Assembly (NCBI GenBank): GCA_026387915.1
Contig: JAPLKS010000014.1
Coordinates: 1-64,000, forward strand
Direction of reading: 5' to 3'
Length of the DNA stretch: 64,000 nt
DNA from: Gemmatimonadota bacterium
GTDB lineage: Bacteria > Gemmatimonadota > Gemmatimonadetes > Gemmatimonadales > Gemmatimonadaceae
Shown here: positions 2,380-9,196 of the stretch, piece after piece
How the letters are laid out: each line of letters begins with the position of its first letter
Position numbering within the stretch: the first letter of the stretch is position 1
Notes under the pieces: model-generated
What the model saw: the letters and a program-made list of their open reading frames with translations, nothing else
What the model was told of the DNA's origin: nothing
Databases searched by the model: none
Made by a program: the position numbers and the translations under genes

Positions 2380-4158
2380 TTACCGCCGCACCGGCACCGG
2401 AAACACCCGCCCCTCAAACACCGTCCCCCACACGGGGATGTCTTTGAGCGTGATCGGATCCACCACAAATGGATCGCGATCGAGCACGGTGAAGTTCGCA
2501 ATCTTCCCCACGGCGATGCTCCCCAGATCAGCTTCCTTGCGCCACGAGTAGGCCGCTTCAATCGTGATGCCGCGCATCGCGTCCATCACCGAAATCCGCT
2601 GCTCCGGCGCCGCCACCCGCCCGCTCGCCGTGACGCGGTTCACTGCGCTCCAGGCGAGAAAGAGTGGATCGGAGGGAGCTATCGGTAAGTCAGAGTGAAA
2701 ACTCAGCGGGATGCCGGCGTCGAGCACCGACTTGGCGCGCGACATCACATCCGCGCGCGCACCGCCGAGACCCACCTTGGTGTATTCGTCGGCAAAGCCC
2801 ACGGGGTAGTACGGATTCGCGCTCACAATTGCGCCGACGGCTTTAATGCGCTTGACCTGCGCTTCGGTGCTGTTTGCAAAGTGCACGATCACCGTGCGGT
2901 GGTCGGTGCGCGGATGCTCGCGTTGCAGTTTTTCGAGCACGCCGAGCACGACGTCGAGGCCACCGTCGCCGGTGACGTGAATGTGCAGTTGATAGCCGGC
3001 ATTCCAGTACAGGCGTGCACGCTCCTCAAGTGCCGCCGGCGTCATCATCCACTCGCCGCTGTGGCCGTCGAGGTAGCCGTCCTTCATTTGCATCAACTGC
3101 GACACAATCGCACCGTCCGCAAACAGTTTGATGGTCTTGGGAAAAAAGCTCACTTTTCCCTCAGGCGCCATCGCCACTTGCCGTTCGGCGTCGGCAATGG
3201 CGCGCTCCACGGGAATTCCGTTGTCTACTTGTTGCCGCGCGTCGGGAAAGAAATACGAATAAAACGGCGTATCCTCGGCGCCGAGCATGAACTGATACAG
3301 CTTCCACATCTCCGGCGTGACAATAATCCCTGGTTCGTTGAAGGCCGTGACGCCGCGCGCGTGGAGCATTGCAATCATCTGCTTGAGGCCGGCGGTCACG
3401 CGGAAAGGCGCGGCGAGCACCTTGAGCGCGGGCGCCATAATAAGATTGGTGCCGCTCTCCCACCAATGGCCCTGCGCCCAGTCGTACATCTCGCTCGCGC
3501 GGCCGTGTCCGTGCATCGACGAATCGGTGAGCCCAAGCGCGTTGATGGCGGCGCTGTTGAGATAGAACTCGTGCACCGACCGCTGCCAGATCAAGATGGG
3601 GCGCGTGGTGCTAATGGAATCGAGAAAGGCGCGGCTGATTGGCCCATGCCAGAGCGCGTGATAGCCCCACGAGGTGAGCCAACGTGTGGTATCAGTAAAC
3701 GCCACATGCGCCGCGCGCAGTCTCTCGCGATACTCGGCGGGCGAACGTGCGGCTTTATACGTTCGGGTGGGCAGCACCCAGTCTTCCGGCGCGATGATCT
3801 CGGTGGTCATCGTGAGCGCACCGAGAATGGGATGCAGGTGCTGGTCGATGAATCCGGGGAAGACGGTTTTCTCGCGGAAGGTGGAGTCCACTCGGTACGC
3901 GCGCGCGCCGAGCGAGCGGCGTACGGCGGCGAGCGATCCTACGGCAACAATGCGCCTGCCTGCCACCGCGACAGCCTGCGCCGTGGGAGCGGCGCGTTCC
4001 ATGGTGTGAATCTGCTTCGCAATAAAGACGGTCACGGAGTCTGGCGCCGGAGCAACCGACTGCGCGAGTGTCGGTGATGAGGCCGCGAGGAAGTACGCCA
4101 GGCCGATGGTCAGGCGCGTGGTCGCCGTGTGCACACAGAAGTTTCCGAGAGTTGTCAT
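2380..4158 (-). CDS. Secreted amidohydrolase, family 3 (YtcJ-like)
   Basis: Predicted amidohydrolase of the YtcJ/amidohydrolase-3 group, about 592 aa from the ATG at 4158; a TTG at 4185 is an alternative start. A signal peptide ends near TLAQS, so the protein is exported. The strand-1 metal motif is FIDQHLHP, a later histidine-containing strand is HIHVTGDGG, and LSFHSD supplies the late aspartate. The end carries the IAVGKIANFTVLD pattern. These enzymes hydrolyse amide or cyclic C-N bonds; the substrate is unknown. It is divergent from the electron-transfer operon across a 207-base gap that should hold both promoters, and convergent with the other amidohydrolase. Confidence 0.85.
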   Translation of the reverse strand: MTTLGNFCVHTATTRLTIGLAYFLAASSPTLAQSVAPAPDSVTVFIAKQIHTMERAAPTAQAVAVAGRRIVAVGSLAAVRRSLGARAYRVDSTFREKTVFPGFIDQHLHPILGALTMTTEIIAPEDWVLPTRTYKAARSPAEYRERLRAAHVAFTDTTRWLTSWGYHALWHGPISRAFLDSISTTRPILIWQRSVHEFYLNSAAINALGLTDSSMHGHGRASEMYDWAQGHWWESGTNLIMAPALKVLAAPFRVTAGLKQMIAMLHARGVTAFNEPGIIVTPEMWKLYQFMLGAEDTPFYSYFFPDARQQVDNGIPVERAIADAERQVAMAPEGKVSFFPKTIKLFADGAIVSQLMQMKDGYLDGHSGEWMMTPAALEERARLYWNAGYQLHIHVTGDGGLDVVLGVLEKLQREHPRTDHRTVIVHFANSTEAQVKRIKAVGAIVSANPYYPVGFADEYTKVGLGGARADVMSRAKSVLDAGIPLSFHSDLPIAPSDPLFLAWSAVNRVTASGRVAAPEQRISVMDAMRGITIEAAYSWRKEADLGSIAVGKIANFTVLDRDPFVVDPITLKDIPVWGTVFEGRVFPVPVRR

Positions 4159-4365
4159 TCGTGGAATGTGGCGAAACTGCGTCAATATTTCGACGGCTGC
4201 TGTCGGCCGCGGTCGCGCCGCGGGACAATATGCCCTCGTTCAACCATTCCGGCGGGCCAGCTACCGAACAGATGATTCCCCAATGTAGGGGAACGACTGA
4301 TGGCAGGTGACTGCGGCGATGCGTACCCTGTGTGGGGTCGCCTTCCGCGCCCTCAACGCCGCGCC

Positions 4366-4665
4366 ATGACTGGAACATCGCCACTCAGTTCGCCACTCTC
4401 ACGCTGGCTTGGCTCGTCTGGCAGTGAGCTGCCGATGGATGCAGAGCGCGTGCGTCTGCTGGCGACTGGCCTCGTGGTGGCAGAGCCCGGCCGATGTGTG
4501 CAGTGCGGTATCTGCTCGCACAACTGTCCTTCTGGCATCGACGTGCGCGCCGTCGCCCGCGTTGCAGGAGCGGTCACCGACGCACGGTGCGTGCTCTGCG
4601 GGAGTTGTGTCGCGCGCTGCCCGCGCGGAACGCTGAGCTTTACCCTGTTGCGGCGTTGGACGTGA
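4366..4665 (+). CDS. Dicluster 4Fe-4S ferredoxin-like protein
   Basis: Small cytoplasmic iron-sulfur protein, 99 aa from the ATG at 4366 (an upstream in-frame start at 4300 adds no recognisable domain). Two CxxCxxCxxxCP motifs are seen, CVQCGICSHNCP and CVLCGSCVARCP, which predicts two 4Fe-4S clusters as in HdrC-like and bacterial dicluster ferredoxins. The stop overlaps the GTG of the next gene in a GTGA, so the two are translationally coupled. It most likely passes electrons between the flavoprotein encoded next and the membrane protein. First gene of the operon. Confidence 0.85.
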   Translation: MTGTSPLSSPLSRWLGSSGSELPMDAERVRLLATGLVVAEPGRCVQCGICSHNCPSGIDVRAVARVAGAVTDARCVLCGSCVARCPRGTLSFTLLRRWT

Positions 4666-5987
4666 CGCGCCGCCACGTGCTGGTGGGATCGGGCGTAGCG
4701 GCATTGGCGGCGGCTGAGTCAATTCGGCAGGCGGATAGTCGCGCGGTCATCACCATGGTGAGCGCCGAGGACGTGCCCTTTTATTCGCGTCCCGCGCTGG
4801 CGTATCTGCTGACGAACGAACTGCCCGAGTCGCAGCTCAGTATCCGGTCGGAGCGTGAGGTTGCGGCGTTGGGAATTGATCGCGTCACCGGGATTGCCGA
4901 AGGGCTGGATGCGGCCGCTCACGAACTCGCGCTTTCTGGCGGCCGTCGCATTTCGTACGATCGGTTGCTCATCGCCACCGGTGCGGCGTCGATTCAAGCG
5001 GACTTCCCGGGTGCTGAGCTCGATGGCGCGGTGCACGTAGACGGTTTGAGCGAGGCGCGGGATTTTGTGACGCGCGCACGGCGCGCGCGCGCGGCAGTGG
5101 TGGTTGGAGGCGGGAGTACGGCGATTGAGCTGGTGGAAGCCCTGCATGCCTGCGGTGTGGAAACGCATTACCTCATGCGCGGCTCGCGCTACTGGTCAAA
5201 AGTGTTCGACGCTGTGGAGTCGGCGATCATCGAGGCACAGCTGATCGAGCAAGGCGTGCAGTTGCATCGCGGCTGCACGGTGCGGGAGGCGGTGGGTGCG
5301 AAGGGTGTGCTCACCGGCGTCAATACCGTTGACGGCCGTCATATTCCCTGCGACCTCCTCGCCGTAGCGGTGGGCATTCGGCCGCGGCTTGAGCTCGCGC
5401 GCGCTGGAGGAGTCGCCACGGAGCGCGGCATTCTCACGAATGAATATCTCGAGACCAGTGCGGCCGATGTGTATGCCGCTGGTGACGTGGCGCAGATATA
5501 CGATCCCGTGACGCGCATGGCGCAGCTCGACACGCTCTGGGCGAGCGCGCTCGCACAGGGCACCACCGCCGGTCTCAATATGTCCGGCGTTCGCGTGGCG
5601 CATCGCAAACGGGCGCCTATGAACGTCACGCGCCTCGGCGGCATCACGGTGACGATTGTCGGTCAGGTTGGGGCATCCGACGATCCGGACCTGCTCACCC
5701 TCACGCGCGGGCAGAGTGAACGCTGGATGACCGACACCGACTCCTGGAGCGTAAGCGGAGCCCGAACCGGCGATCGCCTGCGGGTGATTGTGAGTGGACG
5801 CGTTATTGTTGGCGCCGTGGTGGTGGGTGACCAGCGCGTGTCGCGACCGCTCGCGCATCTCGTCGGCGAAGCGGTCGACATCTCGCAGTTGCGCCCTATG
5901 CTCGACGCCAATCCCAACGACGCAATGGATTTACTGCTCTCTTTCTGTGACGCCCATGTCAGCGACCGAACCGCGGACCACTACTGA
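4662..5987 (+). CDS. FAD/NAD(P)-dependent oxidoreductase
   Basis: Pyridine-nucleotide disulfide-type flavoprotein, 441 aa. The GTG at 4662 is chosen because it overlaps the ferredoxin stop and immediately precedes the FAD-binding strand (HVLVGSGVAALAAAESI). A second Rossmann motif, AVVVGGGSTAIELVEAL, binds NAD(P), and AAGDVAQ near residue 275 is the flavin-binding aspartate motif. It resembles ferredoxin or nitrite-reductase-type NADH oxidoreductases without the redox-active CxxxxC of true disulfide reductases. With its neighbours it probably links NAD(P)H to the iron-sulfur protein and the membrane cytochrome. Confidence 0.85.
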   Translation: MTRRHVLVGSGVAALAAAESIRQADSRAVITMVSAEDVPFYSRPALAYLLTNELPESQLSIRSEREVAALGIDRVTGIAEGLDAAAHELALSGGRRISYDRLLIATGAASIQADFPGAELDGAVHVDGLSEARDFVTRARRARAAVVVGGGSTAIELVEALHACGVETHYLMRGSRYWSKVFDAVESAIIEAQLIEQGVQLHRGCTVREAVGAKGVLTGVNTVDGRHIPCDLLAVAVGIRPRLELARAGGVATERGILTNEYLETSAADVYAAGDVAQIYDPVTRMAQLDTLWASALAQGTTAGLNMSGVRVAHRKRAPMNVTRLGGITVTIVGQVGASDDPDLLTLTRGQSERWMTDTDSWSVSGARTGDRLRVIVSGRVIVGAVVVGDQRVSRPLAHLVGEAVDISQLRPMLDANPNDAMDLLLSFCDAHVSDRTADHY

Positions 5988-6663
5988 GATGATCGGCGGC
6001 CTCGGGGCCGCCGTTGTCGCGACGCTGGCGTTCGTGCTCTGGCGCGAACGGGCCGTGCATTGGGCGAGTGGCTGGACTGGCCACGCGCTCGGAGTACTGG
6101 GCGTGGCGCTTATGCTCTGGGCGGGATTCGGCTACACGCTGCGCAAGCGACGGGTGGCCGCCGGCTCCTCGGCCATGCGGACGTCGATGTGGACCCATAT
6201 CATTGCCGGACTCGTTGGCCCCTATCTGGTGATCCTGCATTCGGGGTTCGCGTTTCGCGGACTGGCTGGCGTGCTCGTGCTGGTAATGGTGCTCGTGGTG
6301 GCCAGTGGCGTCGTGGGACGCGGCGTGTTTACCGCTGTGCCGCGCCAGGTCACGGCGGGCGACGCCGTGCGCGATGCGATGCTCGACGCCGAAATTGTGA
6401 AGCTCGAAACGCGAACCGCCGAACTCACGCGGAGCGGCGAGGATGATCCGGCCGTGCGAGCGCAGCTCCGAATTGAGATGGTCACACTGGAGCATGAACG
6501 CGAACATCTGCGCCGTGTGTGGCGGGCTCGCGGTGCGGCGGTGGTGTGGCGACGCCTGCTGAGTGTGTGGTGGCTGTTGCACGTGCCGCTGAGCATGGCG
6601 CTCTGGGTTCTCGCCGCCGCGCACATCGCGGGCACCTTGTATTACGCCACCCTCTCAAGGTAG
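5956..6663 (+). CDS. Membrane protein with diheme cytochrome b-like histidine pattern
   Basis: Integral membrane protein, 235 aa from the ATG at 5956 (31-base overlap with the flavoprotein); the ATG at 5989, one base after that stop, is equally possible. About four to five hydrophobic segments: near residues 12-30, 38-56, 70-90, 95-115 and 200-225. One segment has two histidines 14 residues apart (from THIIAG to ILHSGF) and the last another pair 14 apart (from LLHVPL to AAHIAG), the spacing with which cytochrome b helices hold two hemes. A charged, probably helical loop (about 125-185) separates them. I do not recognise the family; heme binding and quinone interaction are inference. Confidence 0.7.
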   Translation: MSATEPRTTTEMIGGLGAAVVATLAFVLWRERAVHWASGWTGHALGVLGVALMLWAGFGYTLRKRRVAAGSSAMRTSMWTHIIAGLVGPYLVILHSGFAFRGLAGVLVLVMVLVVASGVVGRGVFTAVPRQVTAGDAVRDAMLDAEIVKLETRTAELTRSGEDDPAVRAQLRIEMVTLEHEREHLRRVWRARGAAVVWRRLLSVWWLLHVPLSMALWVLAAAHIAGTLYYATLSR

Positions 6664-6671
6664 CGGCGAGC

Positions 6672-7514
6672 ATGCGCGGATCTCTTGTGTCGCGGTTGAG
6701 TCTGGTGGTCGCCATGATTGCGCTCGCCGGCGTGGTGGCGGCCTTCGCCTCCAATGGCGGCAGCATGTTCTCGCCAGGCGACCTACGCGGCGCCGACAGT
6801 ACACCAACCGTGCTCGGCGGGGTGACGTCGCATGCGGAACTCAGCGGGCGGTGTGGATCCTGTCACGCGCGGCCGTTGAGCGCGCGTCCGATGAATGCCC
6901 GATGCCTCAGTTGCCACAGTGATATCCGCACGGCGATCGCCGACAGCACCTCGTTGCACGGTAGCGTGACCGACGTGAACCGCTGCACGATCTGCCATAC
7001 CGAGCATGCGGGCGCGTCAGCGCCGAACGCCAGCCTCGAACGCTTCCGAGGTGTTCACGGACGGCTGGGCAGTGGCACGTTCCCGCTCGACGGGGCACAC
7101 GCCAAGACCAAGTGCAACGCGTGCCACCGCAAGGCGGGAGACCGCGCCGGTTTTGGCAACGCGCCCAAAAGCTGCATCGGGTGCCATCAAGAGAAGGACA
7201 AACATCGCGGCCAGTTCGGCGCGGATTGTGCCGCGTGCCACAACACCAGCACGTGGGGCGGCGCGAGTTTTGCTCACGAGGCATTCCCCGTGAACCACGG
7301 CACTCGCGGCACGAATGCGTGCAAAACCTGTCATGAGAATCCGAACAACTACAAACAGTACACCTGCTACAACTGTCATGCCCACTCACCCGCGCGCGTG
7401 AAGGCGCAACACAGGGAAGAAGTGGGGACCGAGAATCTCGATGACTGCGTACGCTGTCACCGCGGTGGCCGCGGCGAGGGACGAGAGCACGGCGAAGGTC
7501 GGGAGCGCCACTAG
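6672..7514 (+). CDS. Nonaheme c-type cytochrome
   Basis: Multiheme cytochrome c, 280 aa from the ATG at 6672, 8 bases after the membrane protein. The N-terminus has a hydrophobic signal or anchor (about residues 8-26), placing the rest in the periplasm. Nine CxxCH motifs are present: CGSCH, CLSCH, CTICH, CNACH, CIGCH, CAACH, CKTCH, CYNCH and CVRCH. Several extra histidines could be distal ligands. The layout resembles cytochrome c3/c7-like families. It is the last gene of the operon and probably takes electrons from the membrane protein for a periplasmic or extracellular acceptor. The C-terminus is Gly/Arg/His-rich. Confidence 0.9.
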   Translation: MRGSLVSRLSLVVAMIALAGVVAAFASNGGSMFSPGDLRGADSTPTVLGGVTSHAELSGRCGSCHARPLSARPMNARCLSCHSDIRTAIADSTSLHGSVTDVNRCTICHTEHAGASAPNASLERFRGVHGRLGSGTFPLDGAHAKTKCNACHRKAGDRAGFGNAPKSCIGCHQEKDKHRGQFGADCAACHNTSTWGGASFAHEAFPVNHGTRGTNACKTCHENPNNYKQYTCYNCHAHSPARVKAQHREEVGTENLDDCVRCHRGGRGEGREHGEGRERH

Positions 7515-7522
7515 CGGAGCAC

Positions 7523-8092
7523 TTATCGGTCGCGTGGCGGCCCCATCCGGCCTGACGCACTATCTCCACCCGGACCGCCCCCACCTCGCATCCCGCGCAT
7601 TCCGCCGCGGCGGTTGGCGCGCAGCGAGTCGGCCTTGGTCCGCTGTGCTGGCGTGAGCACGCCGTCGATCTCGGCGCGCGTAGAATCCATAGCGGCGCGC
7701 ATAATGTCTCCGGCGGATTTCATCACCGAGTCAACGCGCGCGCGACGTTTGGTAACGATCTCCTCAACTTTGGCGCGCTGCGCGTCAGACAGATCGAGAC
7801 TGCCATACACACCGCCCAGTCCACCGCGACCGCCTGGGCCACCAAGACCGCCAGCGCCGTCGGGGCCACCAGGGCCACGGTCCCCGCGGCGCATGAATCC
7901 GCCCATCCCACCACGCGCGCCGCCCATCATGCCGCCGGGGCCACGACCCATCGGGCCACGCAGTTCGCGCATGCGGCGAATCACCAAGCGCTCGGTTGCG
8001 CCTCCGGCCACCGCGCCAGCCAGGAAGGCCAGAATGAGCAACACGGCTGCCTGCGACTTGGCGCCGCCGAGTGCATTGAGCCCTACCTTCAT
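7523..8092 (-). CDS. Spy/CpxP-like periplasmic protein (heavy-metal-sensor type)
   Basis: Membrane-anchored periplasmic protein, 189 aa. One N-terminal transmembrane segment (about 14-33), a Gly/Met/Arg-rich linker (about 45-90), then a helical region with LSDAQRAKVEEIV and VLTPAQRTKAD, the paired LTxxQ-like repeats of Spy/CpxP and of the so-called periplasmic heavy metal sensors. The tail is again Gly/Arg-rich. Its ATG overlaps the stop of the gene before it by four bases, so it is the third gene of a sigma factor operon. A role in sensing envelope stress or metals is inferred from family and context. Confidence 0.7.
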   Translation of the reverse strand: MKVGLNALGGAKSQAAVLLILAFLAGAVAGGATERLVIRRMRELRGPMGRGPGGMMGGARGGMGGFMRRGDRGPGGPDGAGGLGGPGGRGGLGGVYGSLDLSDAQRAKVEEIVTKRRARVDSVMKSAGDIMRAAMDSTRAEIDGVLTPAQRTKADSLRANRRGGMRGMRGGGGPGGDSASGRMGPPRDR

Positions 8093-8448
8093 TGTGGCAC
8101 TCCTTCGCCGAGCAGCGCGTCGGCCGACGAGGTCGAAAGCAGCAACGTGCCCATCGTAGAACTTGTGCCTAAGGCGTCGGCCACTTCGTCGGACGCCAGT
8201 TCAATTTCGGCTGCACTGTCCACGCGTTCGCTCCGTAGCGCGGCCACCGATACGATCGTGATAAGCAGCAGCGCCGCGAGCAATGGCGCGCGCCACTGAA
8301 ACAGCTGCGTGAATGGCGTTGTCTTTCCCGCTCGGCGGCGCGCCATCACCGCCGTGGCGGCAAAGCGCACCTGCGCCACGCGTCGCTCAAATGCTTCAGC
8401 CGGGAGCGTGGGGTCAATGGAGCGGAAATCGATGGGGTCTTCAGTCAT
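8089..8448 (-). CDS. Small single-span membrane protein, possible anti-sigma factor
   Basis: 119 aa from the ATG at 8448, which overlaps the end of the sigma factor gene. A cytoplasmic-type N-terminus (about 1-50), one transmembrane helix (about 54-72, WRAPLLAALLLITIVSVAAL) and an acidic exterior tail. No zinc-type HxxxCxxC anti-sigma motif is present. The position directly after an ECF sigma gene and the single-span topology suggest an anti-sigma factor; sequence alone does not prove it. Confidence 0.55.
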   Translation of the reverse strand: MTEDPIDFRSIDPTLPAEAFERRVAQVRFAATAVMARRRAGKTTPFTQLFQWRAPLLAALLLITIVSVAALRSERVDSAAEIELASDEVADALGTSSTMGTLLLSTSSADALLGEGVPQ

Positions 8449-9019
8449 GGGTGTATTCCCGGAGTAACGGCGTGCCGAGCTCTTCTCGCAAGCGCTTGCG
8501 TGCCACAAACAGGTGCTGCCGCGATCGAACTTCTGTCATCTTGAGCGCCTCGGCGATCTGGCCGTGGGTCCAACCTTCGAGATCGTGCAGCAACACGACT
8601 TCGCGTTGCGTGGGATTCAATACCGCGAGTGCCACTTGGAGCCGGTCCCCGAGTTCCGCTGTGGTCGCATCGTTGAGTGGAGAGTCTGGCGCTTCGGCAA
8701 TCTCCGGCAACAGTTCCAACGTTTCGCGAACCTTGGAATAACTCCGATGGCTGAGGGCTCGATTGCGCACCACCGTCAACAGCCAGGGGGCCACGCGTCC
8801 GGAATCACGACAGTCCTCCAAACGGTCCAACACCTTCACAAAGGCATCCTGACAGACATCTTCGGCGTCCTGCCGATTCCCAACCACGCTCATCGCCACT
8901 GCAAATGCCGCTCGGTAATACCGCCGAACTAGCGCGTCGGCGGCATCGCTGTCGCCGCCGAGGGTACGCGCGACGAGGTCGGCGTCGGAGAGAATAGGTT
9001 CTGGATTCGACACTGACAT
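8441..9019 (-). CDS. RNA polymerase sigma factor, ECF (RpoE-like)
   Basis: Extracytoplasmic-function sigma factor, 192 aa from the ATG at 9019; a GTG at 9037 would add six residues. Region 2 is clear (DALVRRYYRAAFAVAMSVVG, then QDAEDVCQDAFVKV) and region 4 carries the helix-turn-helix (TQREVVLLHDLEGWTHGQIAEAL). It directs RNA polymerase to a stress regulon. The overlaps with the two downstream genes make a sigma / membrane protein / Spy-like unit. Confidence 0.9.
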   Translation of the reverse strand: MSVSNPEPILSDADLVARTLGGDSDAADALVRRYYRAAFAVAMSVVGNRQDAEDVCQDAFVKVLDRLEDCRDSGRVAPWLLTVVRNRALSHRSYSKVRETLELLPEIAEAPDSPLNDATTAELGDRLQVALAVLNPTQREVVLLHDLEGWTHGQIAEALKMTEVRSRQHLFVARKRLREELGTPLLREYTHD

Positions 9020-9196
9020 CCAATTGACGGGGTGCACGGGGGAAGTGTTAGAGCGCGGGGGGCGGGACGGTCCCCTGCGAACCTCCGGTGGGGTATTTGA
9101 GCCAGTGGCGCTTTGGGAGTAGCTTTCCAGACGAGAACGGTCTCTCTGAGCCGTTTTTCCGCCGGCCCCCCCCTGTTAAACAACGAATCCCCCTTC

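Follow-up and report, generated by a model that had tools for sequence, protein, structure and literature searches.

Do four adjacent genes encoding a ferredoxin, a flavoprotein, a membrane protein and a multiheme cytochrome together carry electrons across the inner membrane of a Gemmatimonadota bacterium, and if so from which donor and in which direction? The question is raised by an operon within the first 64,000 nucleotides of contig JAPLKS010000014.1 (assembly GCA_026387915.1), the stretch analyzed here and referred to below as the window. The operon probably encodes a membrane electron-export complex that would run outward, independently of quinones, from cytoplasmic reduced nicotinamide adenine dinucleotide phosphate (NADPH) to a multiheme c-type cytochrome. 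The evidence comes from recurrence of the four genes in a single order in two phyla, from four invariant histidines in the membrane protein and from the families to which the remaining proteins belong.

Conservation and layout of the four-gene module

A sequence-only reading of the window had proposed four coupled genes at positions 4366–7514 and had asked whether they co-occur elsewhere. All four were found there on the + strand, overlapping or near-contiguous, and their co-occurrence proved strong. A complete module in the canonical order ferredoxin, flavoprotein, membrane protein and cytochrome was present at 28 loci, five from Gemmatimonadota (the window, L040, L039, L041 and L060) and 23 from Chloroflexota. 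Loci were found via the flavoprotein or the membrane protein, and presence of the other genes was not built into the search. A flavoprotein orthologue at E ≤ 1e-60 was detected in five of 395 Gemmatimonadota genomes, and all five carried the complete module. For Chloroflexota, the membrane-protein profile matched 60 of 400 genomes, and 22 of the 24 strong-match loci examined displayed the canonical order, including L090, where the contig ends within the cytochrome gene, and L097, where the flavoprotein is split over two frames. All four genes are present in a different order in L100, and in L096 the flavoprotein frame is broken and there is no ferredoxin open reading frame (ORF). The count is completed by Chloroflexi locus L049, from a scan of genome contigs, which likewise has the four genes in the canonical order. 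Neighbor clustering of the module loci revealed no further gene recurring with the module across lineages. In a flavoprotein tree the five Gemmatimonadota sequences formed one clade (100/99) among those of Chloroflexota, with weak branching between them (80/80) and a root placed for drawing only; the distribution of the module may reflect either one transfer or deep common ancestry.

That these genes are chance neighbors without joint function is barely credible. Nothing was found in favor of this explanation, and it is refuted by a gene order shared among 28 loci from two phyla, by the overlapping frames and by the purifying selection on all four genes indicated by low ratios of nonsynonymous to synonymous substitution relative to the same-genus copy L040 (approximately 0.06 for the ferredoxin, 0.07 for the flavoprotein, 0.12 for the membrane protein and 0.14 for the cytochrome). 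The motif counts given by the sequence-only reading (a dicluster ferredoxin, nine CxxCH and two histidine pairs 14 residues apart) were exact. Among all ORFs of the window, only that of the ferredoxin has two CxxCxxCxxxC motifs and only that of the cytochrome has three or more CxxCH, so the motif set is not due to chance.

The ferredoxin and flavoprotein reading frames share 4 nucleotides, and the membrane protein may start either at 5956, overlapping the flavoprotein gene, or at an ATG at 5989 (Table 1). For the ferredoxin, similarity to L040 climbs from MTGTS onward, and the start was accordingly placed at 4366 instead of 4300.

Table 1. Genes of the operon and features of the membrane protein (TM, transmembrane helix; window positions).
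Feature	Position	Strand	Description
Ferredoxin gene	4366..4665	+	99 aa; two CxxCxxCxxxC motifs, predicted 2x[4Fe-4S]
FAD/NAD(P)H oxidoreductase gene	4662..5987	+	GTG start; 441 aa; AorC/PadH-like Pyr_redox_2; predicted NADPH-binding (Arg173)
Predicted diheme b-type membrane protein gene	5956..6663	+	5 TM, 235 aa
His pair 1, TM3	6196..6240	+	H81 (6196-6198), H95 (6238-6240); invariant 53/53
His pair 2, TM5	6580..6624	+	H209 (6580-6582), H223 (6622-6624); invariant 53/53
TM4-TM5 loop	6328..6567	+	Predicted helical hairpin, Arg/Lys-rich, predicted cytoplasmic
Nonaheme c-type cytochrome gene	6672..7514	+	280 aa; N-terminal signal/anchor; predicted periplasmic; nine CxxCH

Upstream of the operon lie two convergent and apparently unrelated amidohydrolase genes (271–2310, + strand; 2380–4185, - strand). 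Facing it from downstream on the - strand (7523–9037) are genes for a small LTXXQ-like secreted protein, a short ORF with one predicted TM and an ECF sigma factor, a group that looks like a separate envelope-stress unit.

Histidine pairs and predicted fold of the membrane protein

Direct searches with the membrane protein yielded no Pfam, NCBIfam or PDB match, and its profile produced only weak matches to PDB sequences, none of them convincing (best E 0.024). Conservation of its two histidine pairs, H81/H95 in TM3 and H209/H223 in TM5 (each 14 residues apart; numbering from start 5956), had been set beforehand as a test. All four histidines were kept in 53/53 homologues, of 17–96% identity to the window protein, and in 47/47 members of a second, partly overlapping homologue set. 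Over the 53 sequences the sole invariant residues were G42, Y60, H81, H95, G118, H209 and H223, with H43 being variable (present in 34/53). The same sequences carried a mean of 5.5 lysine plus arginine against 0.1 aspartate plus glutamate in the TM2–TM3 loop, with lysine plus arginine averaging 14.9 in the TM4–TM5 loop and 0.7 in the TM3–TM4 loop. This positive-inside pattern predicts that the TM2–TM3 and TM4–TM5 loops are cytoplasmic, so that H81 and H209 would lie toward the cytoplasm and H95 and H223 toward the periplasm. Structure prediction had been suggested as a check on heme placement by the histidine pairs. An AlphaFold2 model of the window protein (mean confidence score, pLDDT, 86; hairpin helices at 136–160 and 165–190) and the charge distribution support a predicted diheme b-type bundle that spans the membrane and exposes its long loop to the cytoplasm.

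A fold search with the window protein was swamped by coiled-coil matches to the TM4–TM5 hairpin. Since this loop is missing in short homologues of 184 residues (L041, L101), a Chloroflexota protein of that length was modelled instead (pLDDT 90.7). Foldseek returned no match below E 0.001 for this model. With a second aligner, the short model was aligned with E. coli superoxide oxidase (5oc0; Z 10.4, 3.1 Å over 130 residues), and other top alignments were to STEAP4, cytochrome b561 (Z 9.5), b6f, SpNOX (Z 9.2), HyaC (Z 8.2) and designed diheme bundles; Z scores of this size are common among helical bundles, and those below 13 are supportive only. As evidence for a b-type bundle the invariant histidines are stronger than these structural matches. 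The window protein did not match PF01292 (Ni_hydr_CYTB/cytochrome b561), to which 21 of 47 relatives matched at E ≤ 0.01, L101 scoring 23.3 bits against a gathering cut-off of 30.1. At the same threshold PF01794 (Ferric_reduct) was matched by 2 of the 47, with a best value of 0.0011.

The presence of superoxide oxidase, STEAP4, b561 and SpNOX among the best structural neighbors, and the existence of loci with the core but no c-type cytochrome (see below), would fit a defense or detoxification system resembling NOX or ferric reductases, in which the multiheme c would act as a reductase, using electrons from NADPH to reduce O2, peroxide, superoxide or metal ions at the outer face. NOX, ferric reductase, STEAP and superoxide oxidase (CybB) resemble the proposed complex in taking electrons from a cytoplasmic reductant to the outer face via b hemes, and may resemble it in predicted fold. 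This role is nevertheless quite improbable. In NOX, which reduces O2, an FNR-type dehydrogenase is fused to the b domain, whereas the operon flavoprotein is a separate Pyr_redox_2 gene; superoxide oxidase feeds quinone, and the group has no dedicated multiheme c. A c-type partner with 9 to 30 hemes, and a second with up to 47, fits conduction better than a small-molecule active site.

Electron input and output

The proteins flanking the membrane protein suggest the ends of the proposed outward path. The ferredoxin matches Pfam family Fer4_10 (3.6e-9), and both cluster motifs were kept in 29/29 orthologues. The flavoprotein matches Pyr_redox_2 (1.5e-48), with PadH (NF045765; 4.4e-47) as its best NCBIfam match; at 160.9 bits this falls far below the equivalog cut-off of 475 and, judged by sequence, the protein is a PadH superfamily member but a different enzyme. 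In glutathione reductase of E. coli, Val197-Arg198 select NADPH and a glutamate at the first position selects NADH. Flavoprotein residue Arg173 was present in 36/36 orthologues, and the preceding residue was Leu, Ile, Met or Val in all 36 and never acidic. An arginine without an acidic residue before it predicts NADPH by the glutathione reductase rule, and by this analogy NADPH is a more likely donor than NADH. The proposal of an NAD(P)H- or quinol-linked exporter in the sequence-only reading is supported and, through Arg173, refined toward NADPH. The flavoprotein has no conserved redox-active cysteine pair, and direct electron transfer from it to the ferredoxin is therefore expected.

The closest solved relative of the flavoprotein is AorC (8c0z_E; 3.2e-47), an NADH-using protein with Glu-Met at the positions equivalent to 172–173. 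In AorABC, 9.5 Å separate the flavin adenine dinucleotide (FAD) of AorC from a cluster in the ferredoxin-like AorA (PMC10413684), which sets a precedent for flavoprotein and ferredoxin acting as a pair in the operon. Both AorABC (tungsten aldehyde oxidoreductase) and Pad (phenylglyoxylate dehydrogenase) employ the same Pyr_redox_2 branch, their FAD/NAD(P) subunit trading electrons with a [4Fe-4S] ferredoxin-like subunit (PMC10413684). Unlike the operon products, they are soluble catabolic enzymes with a substrate-oxidizing subunit, an NADH-type fingerprint and no membrane or heme part.

On the output side, the cytochrome matches Cytochrom_c3_2 (2e-11, 44.6 bits; cut-off 25) and Cytochrome_C7 (2.8e-10, 40.3 bits; cut-off 24.8), and on these scores it is a c3/c7-type multiheme protein. 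Nine CxxCH and ten non-motif histidines were invariant among four orthologues, the latter being enough for bis-histidine ligation of nine hemes. Across intact loci the cytochrome beside the b gene has 9 to 30 CxxCH. An SPG motif right behind the N-terminal anchor is common to many module cytochromes and to partners of distant b paralogues (46/76 by strict pattern, a count that includes shadow-frame ORFs); that it serves as a docking site is a guess. Second cytochromes were observed directly downstream of the module in Chloroflexota, with 47 CxxCH in L105 (8971–12438) and 41 in L107 (8132–11260).

Proposed electron path, direction and significance

Given these parts and the predicted topology, the path would run from NADPH via FAD, [4Fe-4S] clusters and two b hemes to c hemes; carrier order, bound hemes, NADPH as donor and outward direction are all predictions. 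NADPH (less probably NADH) would be oxidized in the cytoplasm by two-electron hydride transfer to the FAD of the AorC-like flavoprotein, which would pass single electrons to the 2x[4Fe-4S] ferredoxin, docked against the membrane protein at its cytoplasmic face. Two bis-histidine b hemes, coordinated by H81/H209 toward the cytoplasm and by H95/H223 toward the periplasm, would then carry the electrons across the membrane to the nine-heme cytochrome, which would be anchored on the outer surface of the inner membrane. The final acceptor might be periplasmic or, if electrons continued through the MtrB porin and decaheme cytochrome that another part of the genome encodes, extracellular. The four genes of the operon include neither a pump nor a coupling subunit that would spend proton-motive force, and the complex may act as a vent for excess reductant rather than an energy-conserving step. 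Outward flow is favored because NADPH is a low-potential donor and the inside-negative membrane potential drives electrons out.

Cytochrome c maturation genes are present in the window genome. The same genome encodes in a row (L158, 2028–7822; G000:C9) an MtrB/PioB porin (5.1e-75), a ten-CxxCH cytochrome, a small cytochrome c, a cytochrome b/b6 with a c domain and a Rieske-like gene, possibly an Mtr/Mto-type outer-membrane conduit beside a bc complex. With this porin and ten-heme cytochrome in a diderm, electrons could reach the surface, and such a route is possible for those of the module. A module–MtrB link across the phylum was considered and found unconvincing (2/4 vs 27/294 genomes, Fisher p 0.049); the genomes are also not independent, G000 and G007 being sisters.

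The L158 arrangement is also compatible with iron oxidation and AorC works toward NAD+ reduction (PMC10413684), both of which would suit inward operation, with a donor in the periplasm or outside the cell, for instance Fe(II), supplying electrons to NADP+ or ferredoxin for biosynthesis. Inward operation is improbable: by established bioenergetics, electrons would have to move against the inside-negative potential and climb in energy from typical donors to NADP+, in a system whose operon supplies no subunit to spend proton-motive force.

The b protein is also found beyond the canonical module. Of the b loci whose flanks were long enough to judge, 72 in number, 61 had a same-strand cytochrome of five or more hemes within 3 kb. 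Two loci from the phylum of L051 (Bradymonadales) contain fusions adjoining a multiheme cytochrome: in L146 (5103–7391) 2x[4Fe-4S], flavoprotein and b domain form one chain, indicating that these parts work together, and in L149 (3634–5853) a polyferredoxin is fused to the b domain. A paralogous system with a more distant b protein, widespread in Gemmatimonadota, occurs in the window's own genome (L038, 1454–9398; G000:C17) and comprises a membrane-anchored 2x[4Fe-4S] and thioredoxin-reductase-like flavoprotein, a 23-heme cytochrome and a very large cytochrome in two ORFs of 30 and 16 CxxCH, the latter with a probable frameshift.

Many homologues have b and c genes without an adjacent two-gene flavoprotein/ferredoxin input, a published description classes the split diheme-b/multiheme-c pairs of Carboxydocella as CbcL-like quinol oxidases (PMC6085454), and CbcL-type b domains are HydC/FdnI-like (PMC6295460). 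These points speak for a Cbc-type quinol-linked conduit, in which the diheme b would oxidize menaquinol and feed the multiheme c, with flavoprotein and ferredoxin as a second input, or in which NAD(P)H would reduce quinone via the same b hemes. Such a conduit is unlikely, since every one of the 28 canonical loci couples the b gene to flavoprotein and ferredoxin genes, which a pure quinol oxidase would not require, since these three genes persist without the c gene in eight loci, and since no quinone-site residue was recognized. CbcL/MtoC/MtrH and the Cbc-like pairs of Geobacter and Carboxydocella resemble the operon in joining a diheme b to a multiheme c of widely varying heme number at the inner membrane, and CbcL is described with nine c hemes (PMC6295460). 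By its architecture as described, CbcL is one chain with an N-terminal multiheme c and usually six TM, and is taken as quinol-linked, whereas the operon has five predicted TM, separate b and c genes in every complete locus, and an added flavoprotein and ferredoxin forming an NAD(P)H-type input.

Four considerations weigh against quinone-independent export from NADPH to a multiheme cytochrome. The NADPH fingerprint depends on the glutathione reductase analogy. In eight large-genome Chloroflexota (L110-L115, L117, L118) flavoprotein, ferredoxin and b protein occur without any multiheme c, and the cytochrome is therefore not obligatory for the core. MtrB is missing from two of the four module-bearing Gemmatimonadota sampled and present in many genomes without the module, so the extracellular end is not tied to it. 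Finally, quinol is the presumed electron donor of the closest b/c pairs on record (PMC6085454, PMC6295460).

No described four-part complex of this composition was matched in NCBIfam, Pfam, PDB sequences or the open-access literature. In Methanosarcina acetivorans, Rnf-MmcA links a cytoplasmic low-potential donor to an outside multiheme c without the quinol pool, as is proposed for the operon, Rnf being an unrelated ion-pumping complex of flavins and Fe-S clusters with no diheme b. Within these database and open-access searches, the earlier statement that no named complex of this composition is known holds for the four parts together but not for the b and c half, already known from Cbc-like pairs (PMC6085454); the new part is the dedicated NADPH/ferredoxin input. 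It is a serious possibility, if short of probable, that the operon represents an undescribed quinone-independent NADPH:multiheme-cytochrome oxidoreductase of at least two phyla, its b modules plugged into other flavin/Fe-S inputs in other lineages.

Described bacterial entry points to multiheme export (CymA, CbcL, ImcH) draw on the quinol pool, and the survey reporting this lists a single homologue of ImcH for Chloroflexi and none of CymA or CbcL (PMC6295460). For the electroactive Chloroflexi isolate Ardenticatena maritima a surface cytochrome with at most seven hemes is described and a matching operon is not mentioned (PMC5808234). Among the Chloroflexota genomes searched here, many contained the module. 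Direct entry from NADPH, if true, would allow reductant to be dumped without quinones or proton pumping, and uncultured Chloroflexota and Gemmatimonadota would gain a concrete route for loading large multiheme cytochromes.

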